Source: Nocardioides jiangsuensis (GTDB lineage Bacteria > Actinomycetota > Actinomycetes > Propionibacteriales > Nocardioidaceae). Taken from it: a stretch of DNA of 64,000 bases. A program made the position numbers and the translations under genes. Positions 38,186 to 46,727 of the stretch are shown here, in pieces (position 1 is the stretch's first letter; each line of letters opens with the position of its first letter). The DNA lies in assembly GCF_019679455.1 (NCBI RefSeq), contig NZ_JAIEZQ010000001.1, positions 1,364,001 to 1,428,000 of the forward strand, given 5' to 3'. Below the pieces are notes generated by a model. The model was not told the DNA's origin and did no database searches. It saw only the letters and a list, made by a program, of their open reading frames with translations.

Positions 38186-38245
38186 ATGGGTACGTCAGCC
38201 AGGCGCTGCTTCGTCCACGTCGGCCGGCCAGGGAGTCTGCGGTGA
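38186..38245 (+). CDS. 19-residue leader ORF, possible sulfotransferase-gene remnant
   Basis: The small ORF has a strong Shine-Dalgarno sequence (AAGGGAG, 4 nt before ATG) and encodes MGTSARRCFVHVGRPGSLR. The first 13 residues look like the N-terminus of bacterial sulfotransferases, whose PAPS loop reads F-hydrophobic-H-hydrophobic-G-x-P-K-T-G-T. The match breaks off right there. The stop overlaps the GTG of the GT29-like gene (GTGA), so ribosomes could pass from one to the other. It may be a deletion scar retaining the old promoter and ribosome site, or a functional leader peptide. Confidence 0.5.
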   Translation: MGTSARRCFVHVGRPGSLR

Positions 38246-38952
38246 GCGGGGACGGGCCCCCGGCGGCGCGAGGGGTGACCGCCGCTGCGCCGGTCGAGCC
38301 CGCGGCCCAGGACTCCGCGGTCCTGCGCGACCTGATGCTCGCCTACGCGCGGAACCGGCCGGTGCGCAAGGTCGCGGTTGTGGGCAATGCCCCGCTCCCG
38401 CCCGACGAGGCTCGCGCCGATGAGATCGACACCGCCGACCTGGTGATCCGGGTCAACAGCTTCGTGATGGACCGGCCGGGGGAGCCGCGCTGTCAGGGCG
38501 GCCGGGTCGACGTGGTGGTGTGGAACCGGATCACCCGCGCCACGGAGTTCCTCTTCGACCGCTACCGTGAGCGTCTCTACCTCATGGTCGAGCCGATGCG
38601 CATGCACGGCATCGCCGAGATGTGGCCCGCCTCCTGGCCCCAGGACCTCGGCCTCGTCGCCGTGCCCAACGGGTCGGCCGCCATCCCCCTGAGCGAGGAG
38701 CTCGACATCCCGTGGCGCGAGGAGCGGCTGGCCCCCACGACGGGCATGACCGCGGCGTACCTCGCGATCGTGCTCTTCCCCGAGTGTGACATCGTGCTGA
38801 CGGGGTTCTCGTTCCTCGATGACCCGACCCAGACGCGTTGGCACCATCAGTGGGGAGACTCCTGCCCGGTCGGCCCCGAGCACCGGATCGACAACGAGTC
38901 ACGACTGATGCGCTCGTGGATCGAGTCGGGGCGGGCACGGTTCCTGCGATGA
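38242..38952 (+). CDS. GT29-like sialyltransferase
   Basis: A 236-aa glycosyltransferase with all four sialylmotifs of family GT29 recognisable: L-motif KVAVVGN...ADEIDTADLVIRVNSF (about 43-73), S-motif PTTGMTAAYLA...CDIVLTGFSF, motif III around WHHQW, and VS motif His214-x4-Glu219 (EHRIDNE). GT29 enzymes transfer sialic-acid-type sugars from CMP donors. No signal peptide or membrane helix is seen, unlike eukaryotic relatives. It heads the pseudaminic acid cluster, so CMP-pseudaminic acid is the probable donor. GGGAG lies six bases before the GTG. Confidence 0.75.
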   Translation: MSGDGPPAARGVTAAAPVEPAAQDSAVLRDLMLAYARNRPVRKVAVVGNAPLPPDEARADEIDTADLVIRVNSFVMDRPGEPRCQGGRVDVVVWNRITRATEFLFDRYRERLYLMVEPMRMHGIAEMWPASWPQDLGLVAVPNGSAAIPLSEELDIPWREERLAPTTGMTAAYLAIVLFPECDIVLTGFSFLDDPTQTRWHHQWGDSCPVGPEHRIDNESRLMRSWIESGRARFLR

Positions 38953-38981
38953 CGCCCTCAGCACGCTCTCGAGGAGACAAG

Positions 38982-39377
38982 ATGACATACCTGCAGAATG
39001 CGCGTGCGCGTGGCCGGTCGCTCCTTGGGCGGAGACGACCCGCTCCGCCCGCGGACGTCCCCGACGCGACCACGCAGCGACTCGACCGTCAAAATCGTCG
39101 GATCGGCGCGCTGGAGCGGGACATGAACCGGATGGGTCCGCAGATGGCCGCCCTCGAGGCGCGACTGGAGTCGCTGCGCGAGCGGCTCGTTCGTCCCGAG
39201 GCCGCTCCCGGCGACTACGACGAGGCCCTGTCCCTCGTCGAGGAGGTACGCCGCGAGCACGAGCGGATCCGGGCCCGGATCAGCGCGGCGTCGCGGTTCG
39301 AGGAGCGGCTGCGCCAGCTCGAGGAGGAGATGGGACGGCGCTCGGCGAACGAGCCGACGGACGGGGACGGCGCGTGA
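38982..39377 (+). CDS. Short coiled-coil protein in the pseudaminic acid cluster
   Basis: A 131-aa soluble protein. A basic segment (residues about 7-20, RARGRSLLGRRRP) precedes heptad-like helices at about 32-65 and 80-120, rich in Arg, Glu and Leu. The ATG at 38982 has GGAG five bases upstream; an ATG at 38949 overlapping the previous stop (ATGA) is the alternative. I recognise no family. Being between the transferase and the synthesis genes, it might scaffold or tether the glycosyltransferase. Confidence 0.65.
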   Translation: MTYLQNARARGRSLLGRRRPAPPADVPDATTQRLDRQNRRIGALERDMNRMGPQMAALEARLESLRERLVRPEAAPGDYDEALSLVEEVRREHERIRARISAASRFEERLRQLEEEMGRRSANEPTDGDGA

Positions 39378-39423: not shown

Positions 39424-39440
39424 GCCGCCTCTGAGGCGGC
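39424..39440 (+). terminator. Near-perfect palindrome before the phaJ-like gene
   Basis: GCCGCCTC-T-GAGGCGGC has 8-bp arms around one base. It could act as a terminator for the upstream genes or as an operator for the promoter just downstream. Confidence 0.4.
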
Positions 39441-39482: not shown

Positions 39483-39887
39483 ATGAGCATCAGCGTTGGT
39501 GACACAGCGCGGATCAGCAAGACCATCACCGAGGCCGACATCCTCATGTACGCCGCGGTGAGCCTGGACACCAATCCGGTGCACCTGGACGCGGTCGCCG
39601 CGGAGAAGTCCCTCTTCGGCGAGCGCATCGCGCACGGGATGCTGACCGCGGGGCTCATCTCCGCGTGTCTGGGGACTCGTCTCCCCGGGCCAGGGACGAT
39701 CTACCTCGGACAGACCCTGGAGTTCTCCGCCCCGGTCAGGATCGGTGACACGATCACCGCGCAGGTGGAGGTGGTGGAGGTCGGCGAGAAGGGCCGCGTC
39801 CGCCTGGCCACGCGCTGCACCAACGTCACGGGCGAGACGGTCCTGTCCGGCGAGGCGACGGTGCTGCCACCGCGGGGTGAGACGTGA
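39483..39887 (+). CDS. MaoC/PhaJ-type (R)-specific enoyl-CoA hydratase
   Basis: A 134-aa hot-dog-fold protein. The hydratase-2 motif is LDTNPVHLD with Asp29 and His34, equivalent to the catalytic Asp31/His36 of Aeromonas PhaJ. RIAHGMLTAGL, LGTRLPGPGTIYL and the F-x-x-PV-x-x-GDT block follow, all PhaJ-like. It should convert crotonyl-CoA or similar enoyl-CoA to the (R)-3-hydroxyacyl-CoA. The stop touches the pseH start (TGATG), an intimate link to an N-acyltransferase. No PHA synthase is nearby, so a role in supplying the acyl group is the better guess. Confidence 0.85.
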   Translation: MSISVGDTARISKTITEADILMYAAVSLDTNPVHLDAVAAEKSLFGERIAHGMLTAGLISACLGTRLPGPGTIYLGQTLEFSAPVRIGDTITAQVEVVEVGEKGRVRLATRCTNVTGETVLSGEATVLPPRGET

Positions 39888-40435
39888 TGATCGAGCTCAT
39901 CGACTGCGAGGAGTCCCATCGTTGGCTGCTGTACGAGTGGCGCAGCTCCGACGAGGTGCGGCCGTACATGTACGACCGCGCCGAGATCTCCCGGGAGACC
40001 CACGACGCCTGGTACACCCAGCTCTTGCGGCGGGAAGGGCGCAGGGGTTGGATCATCGCCATGGACGGCAAGCCGGTGGGTGCGGCGTTCGTCTCCCAGC
40101 ACGACCACGAGAACCGGCGGGCCACCTGGGCGTTCTACCTGGCCGACCCGTCGACCCGGGGTCGGGGCGTGGGCAGCGCGGTGGAGTACCTCGTCCTCGA
40201 GCACGCCTTCGGCGAGCTGGGCTTGCACAAGCTGTGCTGCGAGGTGCTGTCGTTCAACACCGCTGTCGTGGCCATGCACAAGAAGTTCGGCTTCGTGGAG
40301 GAGGGGCTCCTGCGCGATCACTGGTACCGCGACGGGGAATGGGTCGACACACACGTCCTGGCGATGTTCGAGGACGCCTGGGCCGAACGTCGAAAGCGCT
40401 TCGGCGAGCAGCTGCGTTCCAGGGGGCTGATCTGA
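39887..40435 (+). CDS. pseH: PseH-like N-acetyl/acyltransferase
   Basis: A 182-aa GNAT enzyme of the PseH type, which acylates the 4-amino group of UDP-4-amino-4,6-dideoxy-L-AltNAc. It has LLYEWRSSDEVRPYMYD near residues 14-30, the acetyl-CoA loop STRGRGVGSAVEYLV and MHKKFGFVEEGLLRDH near the C-terminus. The ATG at 39887 overlaps the phaJ-like stop by one base (a GTG three bases earlier is possible). Its own stop overlaps pseI by one base. The donor may be acetyl-CoA or, given the neighbour, 3-hydroxybutyryl-CoA. Confidence 0.88.
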   Translation: MIELIDCEESHRWLLYEWRSSDEVRPYMYDRAEISRETHDAWYTQLLRREGRRGWIIAMDGKPVGAAFVSQHDHENRRATWAFYLADPSTRGRGVGSAVEYLVLEHAFGELGLHKLCCEVLSFNTAVVAMHKKFGFVEEGLLRDHWYRDGEWVDTHVLAMFEDAWAERRKRFGEQLRSRGLI

Positions 40436-41487
40436 TGCAGGAGACCATCCGTTTCGCCTCGACCCCGGTCGGGGAGGGGCACCCGCCGTTCATCGTCGCG
40501 GAGATGTCGGGCAACCACAACGGTGACCTCGACCGGGCTCTGGACATCGTCAGGGCCTCGGCCGAGGCCGGGGCGCACGCCCTGAAGCTGCAGACCTACA
40601 CGGCGGACACGATCACCGTGGATGTGGACTCCCCGGCGTTCCGGGTGTCCTCGGGGCACGAGCTGTGGGGAGGCCGTTCGCTCTATGAGCTCTACGAGGA
40701 GGCGCATACTCCCTGGGAGTGGCACGAGCCGATCTTCGGGCTCGCCCGCGAGCTCGGCATGGTGGCGTTCTCCGCGCCGTTCGACCCCACCGCCGTCGCG
40801 TTCCTCGAGAAGCTCGAGGTGCCCGCCTACAAGGTCGCCTCCAGTGAGATCGTCGACCTCCCCCTGATCCGGGCGATGGCCGAGACCGGAAAGCCGATCA
40901 TCATCTCCACGGGGATGGCCAACCTCTCCGAGATCGACCGGGCGGTGTCCACCGCACGCGAGACGGGCAACGAGGACATCGTCGTCCTGAGCTGCACGGC
41001 GTCCTACCCGGCGACCCCGGAGGGCTCGAACCTTCGGGCCATTCCCCAGCTCCGGGCACTCCTCGACACGCAGATCGGTCTCTCCGACCACACCCTCGGG
41101 ATCGGCGCGGCGGTGGCGGCAGTGGCGCTGGGCGCGACCCTGATCGAGAAGCACGTGACGTTGGACCGGCACGACGGCGGCGTCGACTCGGAGTTCTCGC
41201 TCGACCCCGGCGAGCTGCACCTGCTCGTCCGGGAGACGAACACGGCCTGGCGGGCGCTCGGCACGGCGTACGTCGGACCGACCGAGGGCGAGGCCGAGGG
41301 GCTGAGGTTCCGCCGCTCGCTCTACGTCGTGCAGGACGTCAGAGCCGGCGACGTCGTCACGCCGGAGAACGTCCGGTCCATCCGTCCGGCCGGTGGGCTC
41401 GAGCCCGCGATGATCGACGTCGTCCTGGGTCGGACCTTCCGCTCGGACGCGCCCAAGGGCACGCCGCTGACCTGGAACCTCGTCTGA
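40435..41487 (+). CDS. pseI: Pseudaminic acid synthase
   Basis: A 350-aa NeuB-family enzyme condensing 2,4-diacylamido-2,4,6-trideoxy-L-altrose with PEP to form pseudaminic acid. The barrel begins FIVAEMSGNHNGDLD (about 19-33), has HALKLQTYTADT, ASSEIVDLPLI, STGMANLSEI and LSDHT. A C-terminal SAF/antifreeze-like domain covers about 290-350. GGVDSEFSLDP favours PseI over NeuB or LegI. Follows pseH with a one-base overlap (TGATG). It converges with pseG, 12 nt away. Confidence 0.92.
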   Translation: MQETIRFASTPVGEGHPPFIVAEMSGNHNGDLDRALDIVRASAEAGAHALKLQTYTADTITVDVDSPAFRVSSGHELWGGRSLYELYEEAHTPWEWHEPIFGLARELGMVAFSAPFDPTAVAFLEKLEVPAYKVASSEIVDLPLIRAMAETGKPIIISTGMANLSEIDRAVSTARETGNEDIVVLSCTASYPATPEGSNLRAIPQLRALLDTQIGLSDHTLGIGAAVAAVALGATLIEKHVTLDRHDGGVDSEFSLDPGELHLLVRETNTAWRALGTAYVGPTEGEAEGLRFRRSLYVVQDVRAGDVVTPENVRSIRPAGGLEPAMIDVVLGRTFRSDAPKGTPLTWNLV

Positions 41488-41499
41488 GCCCTTGCCCGG

Positions 41500-42531
41500 T
41501 CAGCGGGCAACGAGGGCGAGGAGCCGGTCGGCGACCCGGGCCCTGCCGCGTCCGTCGACCCTGGCCCACGCGGCGGAGGCGAGAGCTGCGCGCTGGGACG
41601 GGTCGCGGAGGAGGCCGCGCAGAGTGTCGTGGGCTGCGACCGCCCCCTCGCCGCGCAGCTCGGCCAGCGAGCCGAGGCCCGCAGCGAGCCTGCCGGACAC
41701 CAACCGCTGGTAGCTGACGGTCTGGTTGTCGGCGACCCGCACGAGAGCGGTGGCCGCGCCGAGCGCCAGAAGCTCCCAGGTCGAGGAGCCGGCGGCGCTG
41801 ACCACGAGGTCCGCTCCGACGACGAGCTCAGGCAGCCGGTCGGTCGGCGTGATCGCGTCGATGCTCTGCCCGGAGGCCAGCGGGATGGCGCTGACCTCGT
41901 CGAGCAGGTCGGAGCGGGTCACCACGGTCGCCACGAACGGCAGGCCGGTCCGCGCGAGCGCGCACGCGACGACCGGTGCCGCGCCGTACGCGTCGGTCCC
42001 GCCGAAGACCGCCATCACGGAGGGGACCGACGCCGTGGTCGCCGCCGGCGGCGCCGAGGGCCGCCGCAGCACGACGTCGTCGCGCAGGAGGGCGTAGCTC
42101 AGCCCCGCCAGCCGCTCGCTGCCGACCGGCAGCTCGACCGGGTCTTCCTCGGCGCCGATGTTCTGGTCGAGCAGGAGGTCGGCCTCGGCGCCGCGCAGCT
42201 GGTTGTCGACGAGGGCGAGCGTGGGCATCCCCGTCGCCCGCACGCCCCGGTAGACCGCACCGGGCAGCACATAGGAGTCGAACACGACGGCCGCGACGCC
42301 CTCGGCCCCGAAGAGCTCGACGTGGGCCTCGGCGGAGTCGACGGACGGGAGCAGCGCGAAGCCCCGGGTGCGGATCTGCTCGCGTGCCCACGGGACGGAG
42401 TGGGCGTCACAGACGAACACGACCTCGCAGCCCCTCGACGAGAGCTCCTCGGCCAGCGCCAGGCTGCGCATGACATGGCCGACACCGACGGTCGGCCCCA
42501 CGTCACAGCGGACGGCAATCCTGGGTGCCAA
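41500..42531 (-). CDS. pseG: UDP-2,4-diacetamido-2,4,6-trideoxy-L-altrose hydrolase
   Basis: A 343-aa GT-B-fold PseG. The N-terminal RCDVGPTVGVGHVMRSLALA block contains the active-site His19. VFGGTDAYGAAPVV marks the nucleotide-binding loop, and VVSAAGSSTWELLALGAATALV lies in the C-terminal half. It removes UDP from the PseH product to give the free sugar for PseI. The start is a TTG with AGGAG four bases upstream. It is the only minus-strand gene of the cluster, sharing an 88-nt divergent promoter region with pseB. Confidence 0.9.
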   Translation of the reverse strand: MAPRIAVRCDVGPTVGVGHVMRSLALAEELSSRGCEVVFVCDAHSVPWAREQIRTRGFALLPSVDSAEAHVELFGAEGVAAVVFDSYVLPGAVYRGVRATGMPTLALVDNQLRGAEADLLLDQNIGAEEDPVELPVGSERLAGLSYALLRDDVVLRRPSAPPAATTASVPSVMAVFGGTDAYGAAPVVACALARTGLPFVATVVTRSDLLDEVSAIPLASGQSIDAITPTDRLPELVVGADLVVSAAGSSTWELLALGAATALVRVADNQTVSYQRLVSGRLAAGLGSLAELRGEGAVAAHDTLRGLLRDPSQRAALASAAWARVDGRGRARVADRLLALVAR

Positions 42532-42619: not shown

Positions 42620-43603
42620 ATGAGCGTTCTGCAGGAATCCGACATTCTCGTCACGGGCGGAACCGGATCCTTCGGCAAGGCGTTCGTCCGCTACGCCCTC
42701 GAGAACCTGAACCCGCGCCGGCTGATCATCTTCAGCCGCGACGAGCTGAAGCAGTACGAGGTCAGGCAGCTCTTCAACGACGACAGGCGCCTGCGCTGGT
42801 TCATCGGGGACGTCCGTGACGAGCAGCGCCTGCTGCGCGCCATGCACAACGTGGACTACGTCGTGCACGCCGCCGCCCTCAAGCAGGTCGACACCGCGGA
42901 GTACAACCCGTTCGAGTTCGTCAAGACCAACGTGATGGGCTCCCAGAACGTCATCGAGGCCGCCATCGACACGGGCGTGAAGAAGGTCGTGGCGCTGTCG
43001 ACGGACAAGGCATCGAGCCCGATCAACCTCTACGGCGCGACCAAGCTGACCGCCGACAAGCTCTTCGTCTCGGGGAACCACTACGCCGCGGCCTACGAGA
43101 GCCGGTTCTCGGTGGTGCGCTACGGCAACGTGATGGGCAGCCGCGGCTCGGTCATCCCGTTCTTCCGGAGCCTCGCCGAGGCGGGTCAGTCCCTGCCGAT
43201 CACGGACCTGCGCTGCACGCGCTTCTTCATCACGCTCCCGCAGGCGGTGAAGTTCGTCGTCGACTCCTTCGACATGATGCAGGGTGGCGAGCTGTACGTG
43301 CCGCGCATCCCGTCGATGAAGATCACCGACCTTGCCCAGGCGATCGCACCGGGTGCGGCGATGCACGACGTCGGCCTGCGCCCCGGCGAGAAGCTGCACG
43401 AGGAGATGATCTCCCCCGAGGAGGGCCGTCGGGCCCTGCGCGTCGGGGAGCGTTACGTCCTCCAGCCCGACCTCGGCACGTGGGGGTACGAGCCACCGGC
43501 CGACGGGAAGCTGATGGAGCCGGGCTTCGCCTACCGCTCGGACAGCAATGACGAATGGTTCACGCGCGACGACATCACCCGGATCCTCGAGCAGGACATC
43601 TGA
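42620..43603 (+). CDS. pseB: UDP-GlcNAc 4,6-dehydratase (5-inverting)
   Basis: A 327-aa extended short-chain dehydrogenase of the FlaA1/PseB group, the first pathway step. The NAD motif GGTGSFG is at residues 13-19. STDKASSPINLYGATK contains the catalytic Tyr138 and Lys142. VRYGNVMGSRGSVIPFF and LRPGEKLHEEM complete the family pattern. The ATG at 42620 gives the standard PseB length; upstream frame is the antisense of pseG. It is followed by pseC after 2 nt. Confidence 0.93.
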   Translation: MSVLQESDILVTGGTGSFGKAFVRYALENLNPRRLIIFSRDELKQYEVRQLFNDDRRLRWFIGDVRDEQRLLRAMHNVDYVVHAAALKQVDTAEYNPFEFVKTNVMGSQNVIEAAIDTGVKKVVALSTDKASSPINLYGATKLTADKLFVSGNHYAAAYESRFSVVRYGNVMGSRGSVIPFFRSLAEAGQSLPITDLRCTRFFITLPQAVKFVVDSFDMMQGGELYVPRIPSMKITDLAQAIAPGAAMHDVGLRPGEKLHEEMISPEEGRRALRVGERYVLQPDLGTWGYEPPADGKLMEPGFAYRSDSNDEWFTRDDITRILEQDI

Positions 43604-43605
43604 CC

Positions 43606-44730
43606 GTGCTGCCCTACGGGCGTCAGTCCGTCTCCGAGGAAGACGTCGCCGCCGTCACGGCGGTGCTGTCCGGCGACTGGTTGACCACCGGACCCCATGT
43701 CGCCGAGTTCGAGTCCGCGATCTCGGCGATGGTCGGCGGGCACCGGGCGGTGAGCTGCACCAGCGGCACGGCCGCGCTCCACATCGCCTACGCGGCGCTC
43801 GGCCTCGGGCCGGGTGACGAGGTGGTCACGACGCCCATGACCTTCGTGGCGACCGCGAGCACGGCGTCGCTCCTCGGCGCCACGATCGTCTTCGCCGACG
43901 TCGAGGAGGACACGGCGCTCATCGACCCGGGAGCGGTGTCGGCTCTCGTGGGCGACCGGACCCGGGTCGTCGCCGCCGTGGACTATGCAGGGCACCCGTG
44001 CGACTACGACCGGCTGAACGAGCTCGCCGCCGGCGTCGGTGCGGTCACCCTCGCCGACGCTGCCCACTCCGTGGGGGGTACGTCGCACGGCAGGCCGGTC
44101 GGGGACCTCGCCGACATCACCACGATGTCGTTCTTCCCGACCAAGAACCTCACCACCGGTGAGGGCGGAGCGGTCGTGGCAAAGGACCCCGCGCTGGCAC
44201 AGCGCGCAGCGGAGTTCCACAACATCGGCCTGATCCGTGACCCCGACCGCTTCGAGATCACCGACCAGGGTCCCTGGCACCAGGAAGTCCACGAGCTCGG
44301 GCTCAACTACCGGCTGACCGACATCGGGTCGGCCCTGGGGCTCAGCCAGCTGCGCCGGCTCCAGCAGTTCAAGCAGCGGCGCGCGGAGATCAAGGACCGT
44401 TACGACCAGGCGCTCGACGGAGTTGCCGGGGTGCGCGTGCCCGTGCGGCGCGACGACGTCGACCCCGCCTGGCACCTCTACCCGCTGCGGGTCCTCGACG
44501 GTCGCCGACGCGAGGTCTTCGAGAAGATGCGCGCGGCAGGGATCGGGGTACAGGTCAACTACCTCCCGGTCTACTGGCACCCTGTCTACGCGCGGATGGG
44601 CTACCGGCGCGGCATGTGTCCCCACGCCGAGGCGTTCTACGCCGAGGAGCTCTCGCTGCCGATGTTCCCCGACCTCACCGACACGCAGGTCGACCACGTC
44701 GTCGAGCAGCTGGTCGAGGCGCTGCACTGA
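43606..44730 (+). CDS. pseC: UDP-4-amino-4,6-dideoxy-L-AltNAc transaminase
   Basis: A 374-aa PLP-dependent DegT/DnrJ/EryC1 aminotransferase, second step of the pathway. PLP-binding Lys180 sits in FFPTKNLTTGEGG, with LADAAHSVGG upstream and LGLNYRLTDIGSALGLSQL after. QVNYLPVYWHPVY is in the C-terminal domain. The GTG at 43606 removes an out-of-family extension and gives the usual start, LPYGRQSVSEEDV. Its stop overlaps the pseF ATG by one base. Confidence 0.93.
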   Translation: MLPYGRQSVSEEDVAAVTAVLSGDWLTTGPHVAEFESAISAMVGGHRAVSCTSGTAALHIAYAALGLGPGDEVVTTPMTFVATASTASLLGATIVFADVEEDTALIDPGAVSALVGDRTRVVAAVDYAGHPCDYDRLNELAAGVGAVTLADAAHSVGGTSHGRPVGDLADITTMSFFPTKNLTTGEGGAVVAKDPALAQRAAEFHNIGLIRDPDRFEITDQGPWHQEVHELGLNYRLTDIGSALGLSQLRRLQQFKQRRAEIKDRYDQALDGVAGVRVPVRRDDVDPAWHLYPLRVLDGRRREVFEKMRAAGIGVQVNYLPVYWHPVYARMGYRRGMCPHAEAFYAEELSLPMFPDLTDTQVDHVVEQLVEALH

Positions 44731-45458
44731 TGCGGGTCGGGATCATCACCCAGGCGCGGACGACGAGCACGCGGCTCCCGCGCAAGGTGTTGATGACCGC
44801 GGGGGGCCGCACGATGCTCGACCATCACCTCGACCGCCTCACCCGCAGCGGCCTGCCGGTCTACGTTGCCACGACCACCAACGCCACCGACGACGACATC
44901 GTCTCGCTGGCGGCAGGACGGGGGCTGCCGGTTCACCGGGGCAGCGAGCACGACGTGCTCTCCCGGTTCAGTGGCTGCGCTGCTGAGCACCACCTCGACA
45001 TCGTCGTACGGGTCACGTCCGACTGCCCACTGATCGACGGCGCCCTGATCGCCTCCGCGGTGGAGGACTTCGTGGCCGCCGACGACCCGTGGCTGTACCT
45101 GTCGAACTCGCTCGAGAGGACGTTCCCCCGCGGCTTCGACTTCGAGGTGTTCAGCGCCGAGGCGCTCTTCGATGCTCAGGAGCACGCCTCGGAGGAGGTC
45201 GAGCGTGAGCACGTGACGCCCTATCTCTACGCCAACCGGACCGGGCGGATGCACCTGCGGAACACGGCCTGGCCCGAGGACAAGTCGGCCTACCGAGTCA
45301 CCCTGGACACCGCAGACGACTTCGAGCTGCTCCGCCGGCTCATCGAGGAGCACCAGGCGCACACCCTGTCCTGTGCCCAGATCATCGAGGTGCTCGACGC
45401 CCACCCCCGTCTCGCCGCCATCAACGAGCACGTCGAGCAGAAGAAGCTCGGCCGGTAA
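44730..45458 (+). CDS. pseF: PseF/SpsF-type cytidylyltransferase
   Basis: A 242-aa nucleotidyltransferase of the CMP-NeuAc synthetase-like (SpsF) group. The N-terminal QARTTSTRLPRKVL (residues 8-21) is the CTP-binding motif. VRVTSDCPLIDG holds a metal-binding Asp, and LDTADDFELLRRL lies near the C-terminus. It should activate pseudaminic acid as CMP-Pse. The SpsF branch also occurs in Bacillus coat polysaccharide operons, so substrate specificity is inferred from the five other Pse genes around it. Confidence 0.85.
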   Translation: MRVGIITQARTTSTRLPRKVLMTAGGRTMLDHHLDRLTRSGLPVYVATTTNATDDDIVSLAAGRGLPVHRGSEHDVLSRFSGCAAEHHLDIVVRVTSDCPLIDGALIASAVEDFVAADDPWLYLSNSLERTFPRGFDFEVFSAEALFDAQEHASEEVEREHVTPYLYANRTGRMHLRNTAWPEDKSAYRVTLDTADDFELLRRLIEEHQAHTLSCAQIIEVLDAHPRLAAINEHVEQKKLGR

Positions 45459-45500: not shown

Positions 45501-46727
45501 CTACTTGTCGATGTCGCCGACGACGAAGAACATCGAGCCGAGGATCGCCACCATGTCCGCGACGACGCAGCCGGTGAGGACCTCCGGAAGCACCGCGATG
45601 TTGTTGAACGACGCGCTGCGCAGCTTCATGCGCCACGGGGTCTTCTCGCCCCGGGAGACGAGGTAGTAGCCGTTGATGCCGAGCGGGTTCTCGGTCCAGG
45701 CGTACGTCGACCCCTCCGGGGCCTTGAGGATCTTCGGCAGCCGCACGTTGATCGGCCCCCGGTCGAGCGAGCGGAGCCGGTCGAGGCAGGCCTCCACGAT
45801 GTCGAGCGAGACCTGCACCTGGTCCAGCAGCAGCCCGAACCGCGCGTAGCAGTCACCCTCCGCGCGCAGCGACAGCCGCATCACGCCATCGGCGACGAGC
45901 TCGTCGTAGGCGAGGTACGGCTCGTCGCGCCGGAGGTCGAAGTCCACCCCGGAGGCCCGCGAGATCGGTCCCGAGACGCCGTACGCGTCGATCAGCTCGC
46001 GGGAGAGGATCCCGACGTTCTGGGTGCGGGCCTGGAAGATCTCGTTGCCGAAGATCAGGTCCTCGATCTGCGGCAGCCGGGAGCGGACCGCCGTGACCGC
46101 CTGCCCGCACCGGTCGAGCCAGCCGGCCGGCAGATCCTCCTTGAGCCCGCCGACCCGGTTGAACATGTAGTGCATCCGGCCGCCGGAGAGCTCCTCCATC
46201 ACCGCCTGGATCGTCTCGCGCTCCCGGAAGGCGTAGAACATCGGCGTGATCGCGCCGAGCTCGATCGGGTAGGAGCCCATGAACATCAGGTGGTTCAGCA
46301 CCCGGTTCAGCTCGGCGAGCAGGGTCCGCAGCCACACCGCCCGCGCGGGCACCTCCATGCCCAGCATCCGCTCGACGGCGAGCACCACGCCGAGCTCGTT
46401 GGAGAACGCCGAGAGCCAGTCGTGCCGGTTGGCGAGCACGATGATCTGCCGGTAGTCGCGCACCTCGAACAGCTTCTCGACGCCGCGGTGCATGTACCCG
46501 ACGACGGGTTCGCACGCCACGATGCGCTCGCCGTCGAGGGTGAGCCGGAGCCGCAGGACGCCGTGCGTCGCGGGGTGCTGGGGGCCGATGTTGAGGACCA
46601 TGTCCTGGGTGGCCATCCCGGGGCCGCCACCACGCTCGTGGTCGCCGAACCCGGCCGCACCCGCACCCACGCCGACCACGATCTGCTCGGGGCGTTTCAT
46701 CGGTCTGCGCTCAGTCACGGGGCCCAT
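45501..46727 (-). CDS. NuoD-like NADH-quinone oxidoreductase 49-kDa subunit, isolated copy
   Basis: A 408-aa protein clearly of the NuoD/NDUFS2 family: [18 protein letters not shown] (about 43-60), [26 protein letters not shown] and a C-terminal [28 protein letters not shown] region (seen in blocks). In complex I this subunit lines the quinone pocket. No other nuo gene is in the window, so this is a second, detached copy or part of another hydrogenase/Mrp-like assembly. Start uncertain: the first ATG (46727) and one at 46698 are both possible, since the N-terminal 38 residues are not family-like. Confidence 0.87.

Follow-up and report, generated by a model that had tools for sequence, protein, structure and literature searches.

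In the genome of Nocardioides jiangsuensis, a gene for a predicted PhaJ-type (R)-specific enoyl-CoA hydratase (maoC) stands directly in front of pseH, the N-acyltransferase gene of a pseudaminic acid (Pse) cluster, in a stretch of 64,000 nucleotides that we call the window. What is new here is that this pseH is unlike the version of the host's relatives, that maoC and pseH lie together at the joint between a GT29–coiled-coil gene pair and pseI, and that no PHA synthase or PhaB match accompanies them in the host genome. On balance we think it somewhat probable, from this one genome, that the hydratase supplies PseH with (R)-3-hydroxybutyryl-CoA and that the sugar would be Pse5Ac7(3Hb). A wider proposal, about which we have slightly more doubt than belief, is that we see a nonulosonic acid operon with its own acyl-donor supply, in which a PhaJ-type hydratase and a matching PseH were imported together, into a bacterium lacking a PHA synthase, and changed N7-acetyl into N7-(R)-3-hydroxybutyryl, the pseH place being an exchangeable acyl module. 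The genes of the cluster are listed in Table 1.

Table 1. Features of the cluster, with positions in the window and the profile matches that name them.
Feature	Position	Strand	Remarks
GT29 (sialyltransferase-like) protein	38242..38952	+	First cluster gene; PF00777 28.7 bits, residues 36-75 only
Coiled-coil gene	38934..39377	+	Start uncertain; weak coiled-coil matches alone
Perfect 8-nt inverted repeat, 1-nt centre	39424..39440		Gap between coiled-coil gene and maoC, upstream of maoC
maoC, predicted PhaJ-type (R)-specific enoyl-CoA hydratase, 134 aa, ATG	39483..39887	+	MaoC_dehydratas PF01575 94.8 bits (cut-off 27)
pseH, GNAT N-acyltransferase for UDP-4-amino-4,6-dideoxy-L-AltNAc, 182 aa	39887..40435	+	TIGR03585 (PseH equivalog) 124.3 bits (cut-off 93.1)
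pseI, pseudaminic acid synthase	40435..41487	+	TIGR03586 457.8 bits (cut-off 340.25)
pseG-like UDP-sugar hydrolase	41500..42531	-	TIGR03590 141.7 bits, below cut-off of 153.55
pseB, UDP-GlcNAc 4,6-dehydratase (inverting)	42620..43603	+	TIGR03589 473.8 bits (cut-off 407.75)
pseC, aminotransferase	43600..44730	+	Start uncertain, ORF from 43555; TIGR03588 416.3 bits (cut-off 423.5); PF01041
Cytidylyltransferase in PseF position	44730..45458	+	CTP_transf_3 79.7 bits

The TGA of maoC (39885–39887) and the ATG of pseH have base 39887 in common (TGATG), as the first-pass annotation had stated, and the TGA of pseH (40433–40435) shares base 40435 with the ATG of pseI in the same manner (TGATG). maoC is the first gene of this overlapping maoC–pseH–pseI run, and no catabolic gene directly adjoins it. 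The annotation had called the hydratase fused to PseH, which is too strong a word here: the proteins are separate, and a single base is common to their genes. A GTG at 39884 offers an alternative start that would lengthen PseH to 183 residues. The inverted repeat in front of maoC is a possible operator or weak terminator; a consensus search of this gap gave neither a terminator-like nor a sigma-70-like site. GC3 is 0.91 in maoC and 0.92 in pseH and is similar in the remainder of the cluster, so that base composition shows no sign of recent import. The host genome has seven PF01575 matches, and with an estimated density of about one gene per kb the chance that such a gene adjoins a given gene is about 0.4% when computed post hoc. 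Directly behind the cluster, on the opposite strand, lies a lone nuoD-like gene (Complex1_49kDa; 45501–46727, minus strand), which passed one cut-off among the NuoD models listed, that of PRK06075.

The nearest solved chains to MaoC are two (R)-specific enoyl-CoA hydratases: 5cpg (E = 1e-38), which we take to be P. aeruginosa PhaJ1, with 68 of 129 residues identical (53%), and 1iq6 (E = 2.8e-28), presumably A. caviae PhaJ, with 59 of 128 columns identical (46%). At the sequence level this identity settles the MaoC fold, and the assignment as a PhaJ-type hydratase, of the PhaJ1 type, is supported by it. The Asp29/His34 pair and the LPGPGTIYL block that had been claimed for this protein are both present. 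Asp29 and His34 align with the PhaJ catalytic pair of the D-x-N-P-x-H motif, and Asp29, Asn31, Pro32 and His34 are invariant in an alignment of 13 sequences, the window MaoC included. It could be argued that a protein of this kind acts on the sugar itself, or that it is a thioesterase-like hot-dog protein instead of a donor-forming hydratase. Hot-dog folds are known in general to be versatile, but here the catalytic pair and the motif residues are intact and a solved (R)-hydratase is 53% identical, and we give this explanation hardly any credit. As to chain length, Ser60, Leu63 and Val127 correspond in the 1iq6 alignment, with an assumed numbering offset of 1, to Ser62, Leu65 and Val130 of A. 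caviae PhaJ, which we take to be the residues that restrict that enzyme to short acyl chains; A. caviae PhaJ is C4–C6 specific.

The closest relatives found for the window MaoC are proteobacterial, with up to 59% identity on plasmids (among the matches listed, 60 of 264 records) and up to 57% in Pseudomonadales, while relatives in four genomes of the host's order reach 50–51%. In a tree of 58 rows, a starred clade of 17 actinobacterial rows (100/94) holds the host's own paralogue (L013). The window MaoC falls outside this clade and in no starred set, and its own position is unsupported.

The usual role of PhaJ is the feeding of PHA synthase. The host genome gave no match to the PHA synthase family PF07167, which in a control search matched one of 14 genomes, that of Caulobacter, and none of its 27 reductase matches was above the curated cut-off for PhaB. 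A role of MaoC in PHB metabolism therefore seems unlikely from the gene content, and for the same reason we see no canonical PHB route by which (R)-3-hydroxybutyryl-CoA would be made; other reductases of the host could in principle make this compound.

PseH scores above its equivalog cut-off, and its gene stands upstream of pseI in a cluster with pseB, pseC, pseI and pseG. The AlphaFold2 model of PseH (pLDDT 95.4) was compared with solved structures. The best matches were spermidine acetyltransferases (SpeG chains, Z up to 23.7) and H. pylori PseH in its acetyl-CoA-bound form (4ri1; Z 22.0, rmsd 1.9 over 168 residues, 21% identity). Since SpeG chains score at least as high as 4ri1, the protein cannot be recognised as PseH from its fold alone. 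At rank 11 among the structural neighbours we find FdhC (5ktc; Z 20.9, 18% identity), whose entry title names an (R)-3-hydroxybutanoylamino sugar product, and the product is bound in the structure. FdhC acts on dTDP-Fuc3N. Its likeness to the model shows only that such a fold can handle an (R)-3-hydroxybutanoyl group and says nothing certain of the window PseH. In the structural neighbour list and in the PseH sequence, no feature that separates acetyl from hydroxybutyryl users was found.

The closest PseH found is that of Blastococcus saxobsidens, with 54% identity. In a PseH tree of 79 rows, the 29 rows of the host's order form one clade (100/100) from which the window PseH is excluded; it pairs with the Blastococcus saxobsidens protein (100/93). 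The starred set around this pair (17 rows, 99/93) also includes eight orphan Pseudomonas GNATs. The pair adjoins rows from Chloroflexi, Alphaproteobacteria (Caulobacteraceae-like) and Nostoc with weak support (91/69). The tree took eight of the 35 orphan rows and omitted five duplicate loci, its bootstrap is not fully settled, and rows were labelled "pse" by exclusion (the loci of L067, L069 and L132 are without pseI). By this phylogeny the window PseH is a different version from that of the host's relatives and foreign to them. The Sinorhizobium rkp-3 loci, which were the best plasmid hits of PseH, had been considered as a pointer to hydroxybutyryl transfer; this was dropped because in the tree the window PseH groups with Blastococcus instead of Sinorhizobium.

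Of the remaining proteins, PseI and PseB score above their cut-offs, and PseC is 7 and PseG 12 bits under theirs. The cytidylyltransferase had no match to the PseF models at E<=0.001, and its best models were of the CMP-Kdo synthetase type. These profile matches identify the cluster as one for pseudaminic acid. PseI was found at E<=1e-80 in 48 of the 196 genomes of the host's order, host included. From the 47 other genomes we compared 29 PseI loci with about 1.5 kb on each side, where PseI is 66–71% identical to ours and a PseH match occurs in 28 of the 29 at 24–38%. We also compared eight wider clusters of the order, six of which come from genomes already represented among the PseI loci. They show 72–75% identity for PseB (four clusters), 65–76% for PseC (three full-length) and 61–71% for PseI (all eight). 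For PseF the range is 34–66% (three clusters; cytidylyltransferase homologues in L149, L152 and L151 at 66%, 57% and 34%), and for PseG it is 29–50% (four clusters). PseG, like PseH, is thus far more variable than PseB, PseC and PseI across the pse clusters of the order. With the window PseH as query, PseH was found in four of these eight clusters at 28–36% identity; with an actinobacterial PseH as query it was found in six, and L149 and L152 had none. The order's other clusters carry a different pseH before pseI, without maoC. The acyl-handling steps of pse clusters look exchangeable.

The comparison with Blastococcus saxobsidens (locus L065) shows where the two genes lie. This locus has homologues of the GT29-like protein (51% identical) and of the coiled-coil protein (39%), in the order GT29–coil–pseI, and the TGA of the coil gene overlaps the inferred ATG of pseI; its pseH is elsewhere in the locus, in front of pseG. 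In the window the same order is interrupted by maoC and pseH. Since the GT29 and coil genes run straight into pseI in L065, maoC and pseH sit exactly in the joint and look like one inserted unit. The simplest history suggested by this gene order is that maoC and pseH arrived at the joint together, with two separate steps also conceivable. The joint is the strongest sign, seen in one genome, that the two genes would belong together. The GT29-like gene and its small coiled-coil neighbour (38242–39377), which accompany pse genes both here and in L065, may encode a transferase for the sugar together with a partner protein.

The first-pass annotation had proposed to look for phaJ–pseH adjacency in other genomes and had counted absence of the hydratase from related clusters against its own reading. 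No second pair appeared in the loci examined, and the hydratase is absent from the related clusters of our sample: no MaoC gene was found in 80 PseH loci (0/80), in the 29 PseI loci of the host's order with their 1.5 kb or so on each side (0/29), or in the eight wider pse clusters (0/8). The 80 loci were kept from 181 relatives in a PseH alignment scan of genome contigs; 68 of them are at least 18 kb long and the rest 4–17 kb, pseI was matched as well in 33, and the label of orphan Pseudomonas GNAT was given to 35, which have no or nearly no further pse matches. The MaoC profile with which the 80 loci were scanned was made from 26 sequences and found MaoC in all 34 control loci. The orphan PseH-like GNATs of L077, L104 and similar Pseudomonas loci have no pse neighbours; in two such loci they lie near genes for MFS, flavodoxin-like, solute-binding, EAL and HBM chemoreceptor proteins. 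The Blastococcus genome has no PhaJ/MaoC relative at E<=1e-10. All five other genomes with a related PseH hold PhaJ relatives, with no pse genes adjoining in the stretches examined. Three other genomes of the genus, one of them 77% complete, gave neither maoC nor pseH at E<=1e-15.

Searches that started from MaoC gave matches in 12 of 196 genomes of the host's order (host included), in 14 of 394 of the class, and in 132 of 293 of the order of Stutzerimonas (Pseudomonadales), where the loci of 30 were examined. L008 aside, no pse neighbour was seen in the class and the Pseudomonadales, nor a pse gene adjoining MaoC in the 23 loci L002–L024. L008 has a weak PseH-like GNAT stretch (33% over 48% of PseH, E=5e-6), which we took for an unrelated GNAT. 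Two MaoC plasmid regions (of 60 among 264 matching records) both have acyl-CoA metabolism neighbours. The search from PseH matched two of 396 genomes of the phylum, host included, and the other one (L154) has pseG and pseI and no MaoC. Five plasmid regions of 257 records, four of them from Sinorhizobium, have no MaoC, and the Sinorhizobium loci of Rm41, chiapasense, americanum and CCBAU 05631 show no hydratase beside pseH. None of four PseH loci on viral contigs has MaoC; PseH matches in phages came from 17 records. The maoC–pseH pairing is so far a singleton, in the sample examined rather than in all genomes.

This absence fits a rival explanation, in which the cluster makes ordinary Pse5Ac7Ac, PseH uses acetyl-CoA, and the hydratase is a hitch-hiker that serves general short-chain acyl-CoA metabolism and owes its place in the operon to chance or to co-expression. 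That the sister PseH of Blastococcus has no hydratase, and that the window PseH matches an acetyltransferase equivalog and an acetyl-CoA-bound PseH structure, agree with such an ordinary cluster. This main rival has to account, however, for the one-base overlap with pseH, for two genes at one joint, for a PhaJ without a PHA synthase match, for a pseH that was itself exchanged, and for a maoC with no catabolic gene directly beside it; we consider it possible and rather doubtful. Another option is that the hydratase and PseH do cooperate and that the acyl group is a different (R)-3-hydroxyacyl, such as 3-hydroxypropionyl, 3-hydroxyvaleryl or a branched one. The nearest relatives found (among the matches listed) share 54% identity with PseH and no more than 59% with MaoC, and many acyls occur on Pse, with glyceroyl, lactyl and 4-hydroxybutyryl amides described in the accessible part of a review (Chem Rev). 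Against this stand the pocket residues, which match those of the C4–C6 enzyme of A. caviae, and the literature covered, in whose available passages 3-hydroxybutyryl is, glyceroyl apart, the sole 3-hydroxyacyl on N7 of Pse; another acyl group seems improbable to us.

The reading that we prefer, transfer of (R)-3-hydroxybutyryl by PseH, had been the interpretation of the first-pass annotation, and it is supported in part. The PhaJ-type gene, the overlapping run, the foreign pseH, the lack of a PHA synthase match and the published 7-N-3-hydroxybutyryl Pse speak for it, while the absence of the hydratase from the other pse loci examined speaks against it. We infer the substrate of the hydratase, the acyl choice of PseH, the sugar that is made and its destination. 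In the proposed mechanism, maoC and pseH would be a two-gene unit for acyl donor and acyl transfer that has taken the position of pseH in an actinobacterial pse cluster of otherwise ordinary type. MaoC would form (R)-3-hydroxybutyryl-CoA by hydration of crotonyl-CoA that stems from beta-oxidation or related metabolism, and PseH, translated from the overlapping start codon, would transfer the acyl group to the 4-amino group of UDP-4-amino-4,6-dideoxy-beta-L-AltNAc. PseG, PseI and the cytidylyltransferase might then lead to CMP-Pse5Ac7(R-3Hb), and the sugar could enter a surface or cell-wall glycan, perhaps via the GT29-like protein.

To our knowledge, the source of hydroxyacyl-CoA for rare N-acyl groups on bacterial surface sugars is rarely stated. 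If the proposal is true, a hydratase that is locked to the transferase answers this question for one case; it would also give a genome marker for the N-acyl type of Pse and a pair of enzymes for the synthesis of Pse5Ac7(3Hb). With this pairing, the choice of acyl group by PseH becomes open to a direct test. Rhizobia make PHB and can borrow hydroxyacyl-CoA from this metabolism, so they need no local hydratase, and a host without a PHA synthase might need one.

That Pse with N-linked 3-hydroxybutyrate is known from other bacteria, as had been claimed, is correct for N7 in two cases. According to the available text of the sources, the K antigen of S. fredii HH103 has Pse with a 7-N-3-hydroxybutyryl group (PMC9037385, PMC4881576), and S. 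boydii type 7 has (R)-3-hydroxybutanoyl at N7, where the acyltransferase is predicted to be Psb5 (PMC3628348). For Sinorhizobium Rm41, the accessible part of a review gives hydroxybutyryl on N5 and acetyl on N7; a Sinorhizobium-like PseH is thus no proof of hydroxybutyryl transfer. For H. pylori PseH the literature, in the portions available, describes acetyl-CoA as the donor and names no coupled hydratase. Other papers covered by the literature search are PMC9912281, PMC1403797, PMC4363471, PMC4964394, PMC6388019 and PMC8851196. No open-licence PMC paper with "MaoC" and "pseudaminic acid" together was found, which is a weak test since subscription journals are mostly outside this collection. 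Three papers combine "pseudaminic" with "enoyl-CoA hydratase"; in one of them, in the text available, the hydratase belongs to a separate terpene cluster. HH103 and S. boydii type 7 with its Psb5 have the same sugar type as the predicted product of the window; these systems were compared by description rather than by loci, and the accessible text of their sources mentions no hydratase.

Among solved enzymes, the PhaJ proteins 5cpg and 1iq6 share with the window MaoC the fold, the Asp/His pair and the LPGxGxIYLGQ block, and they differ in that our maoC sits in a nonulosonate operon of a genome without a PHA synthase match. The PseH proteins of H. pylori (4ri1) and C. jejuni (4xpk) are like the window PseH in GNAT fold, in a score above the equivalog cut-off and in a pse operon place upstream of pseI, while the structural alignment with 4ri1 has 21% identity. 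FdhC (5ktc) is a sugar N-acyltransferase with an (R)-3-hydroxybutanoyl product and a structural neighbour of the model, but it is 18% identical and not a pse enzyme. The anthrose operon, whose hydratase is crotonase-type and whose sugar is not a nonulosonate, combines an enoyl-CoA hydratase with an aminotransferase and an acyltransferase, and is a precedent for a hydratase that makes hydroxyacyl-CoA beside a sugar N-acyltransferase.
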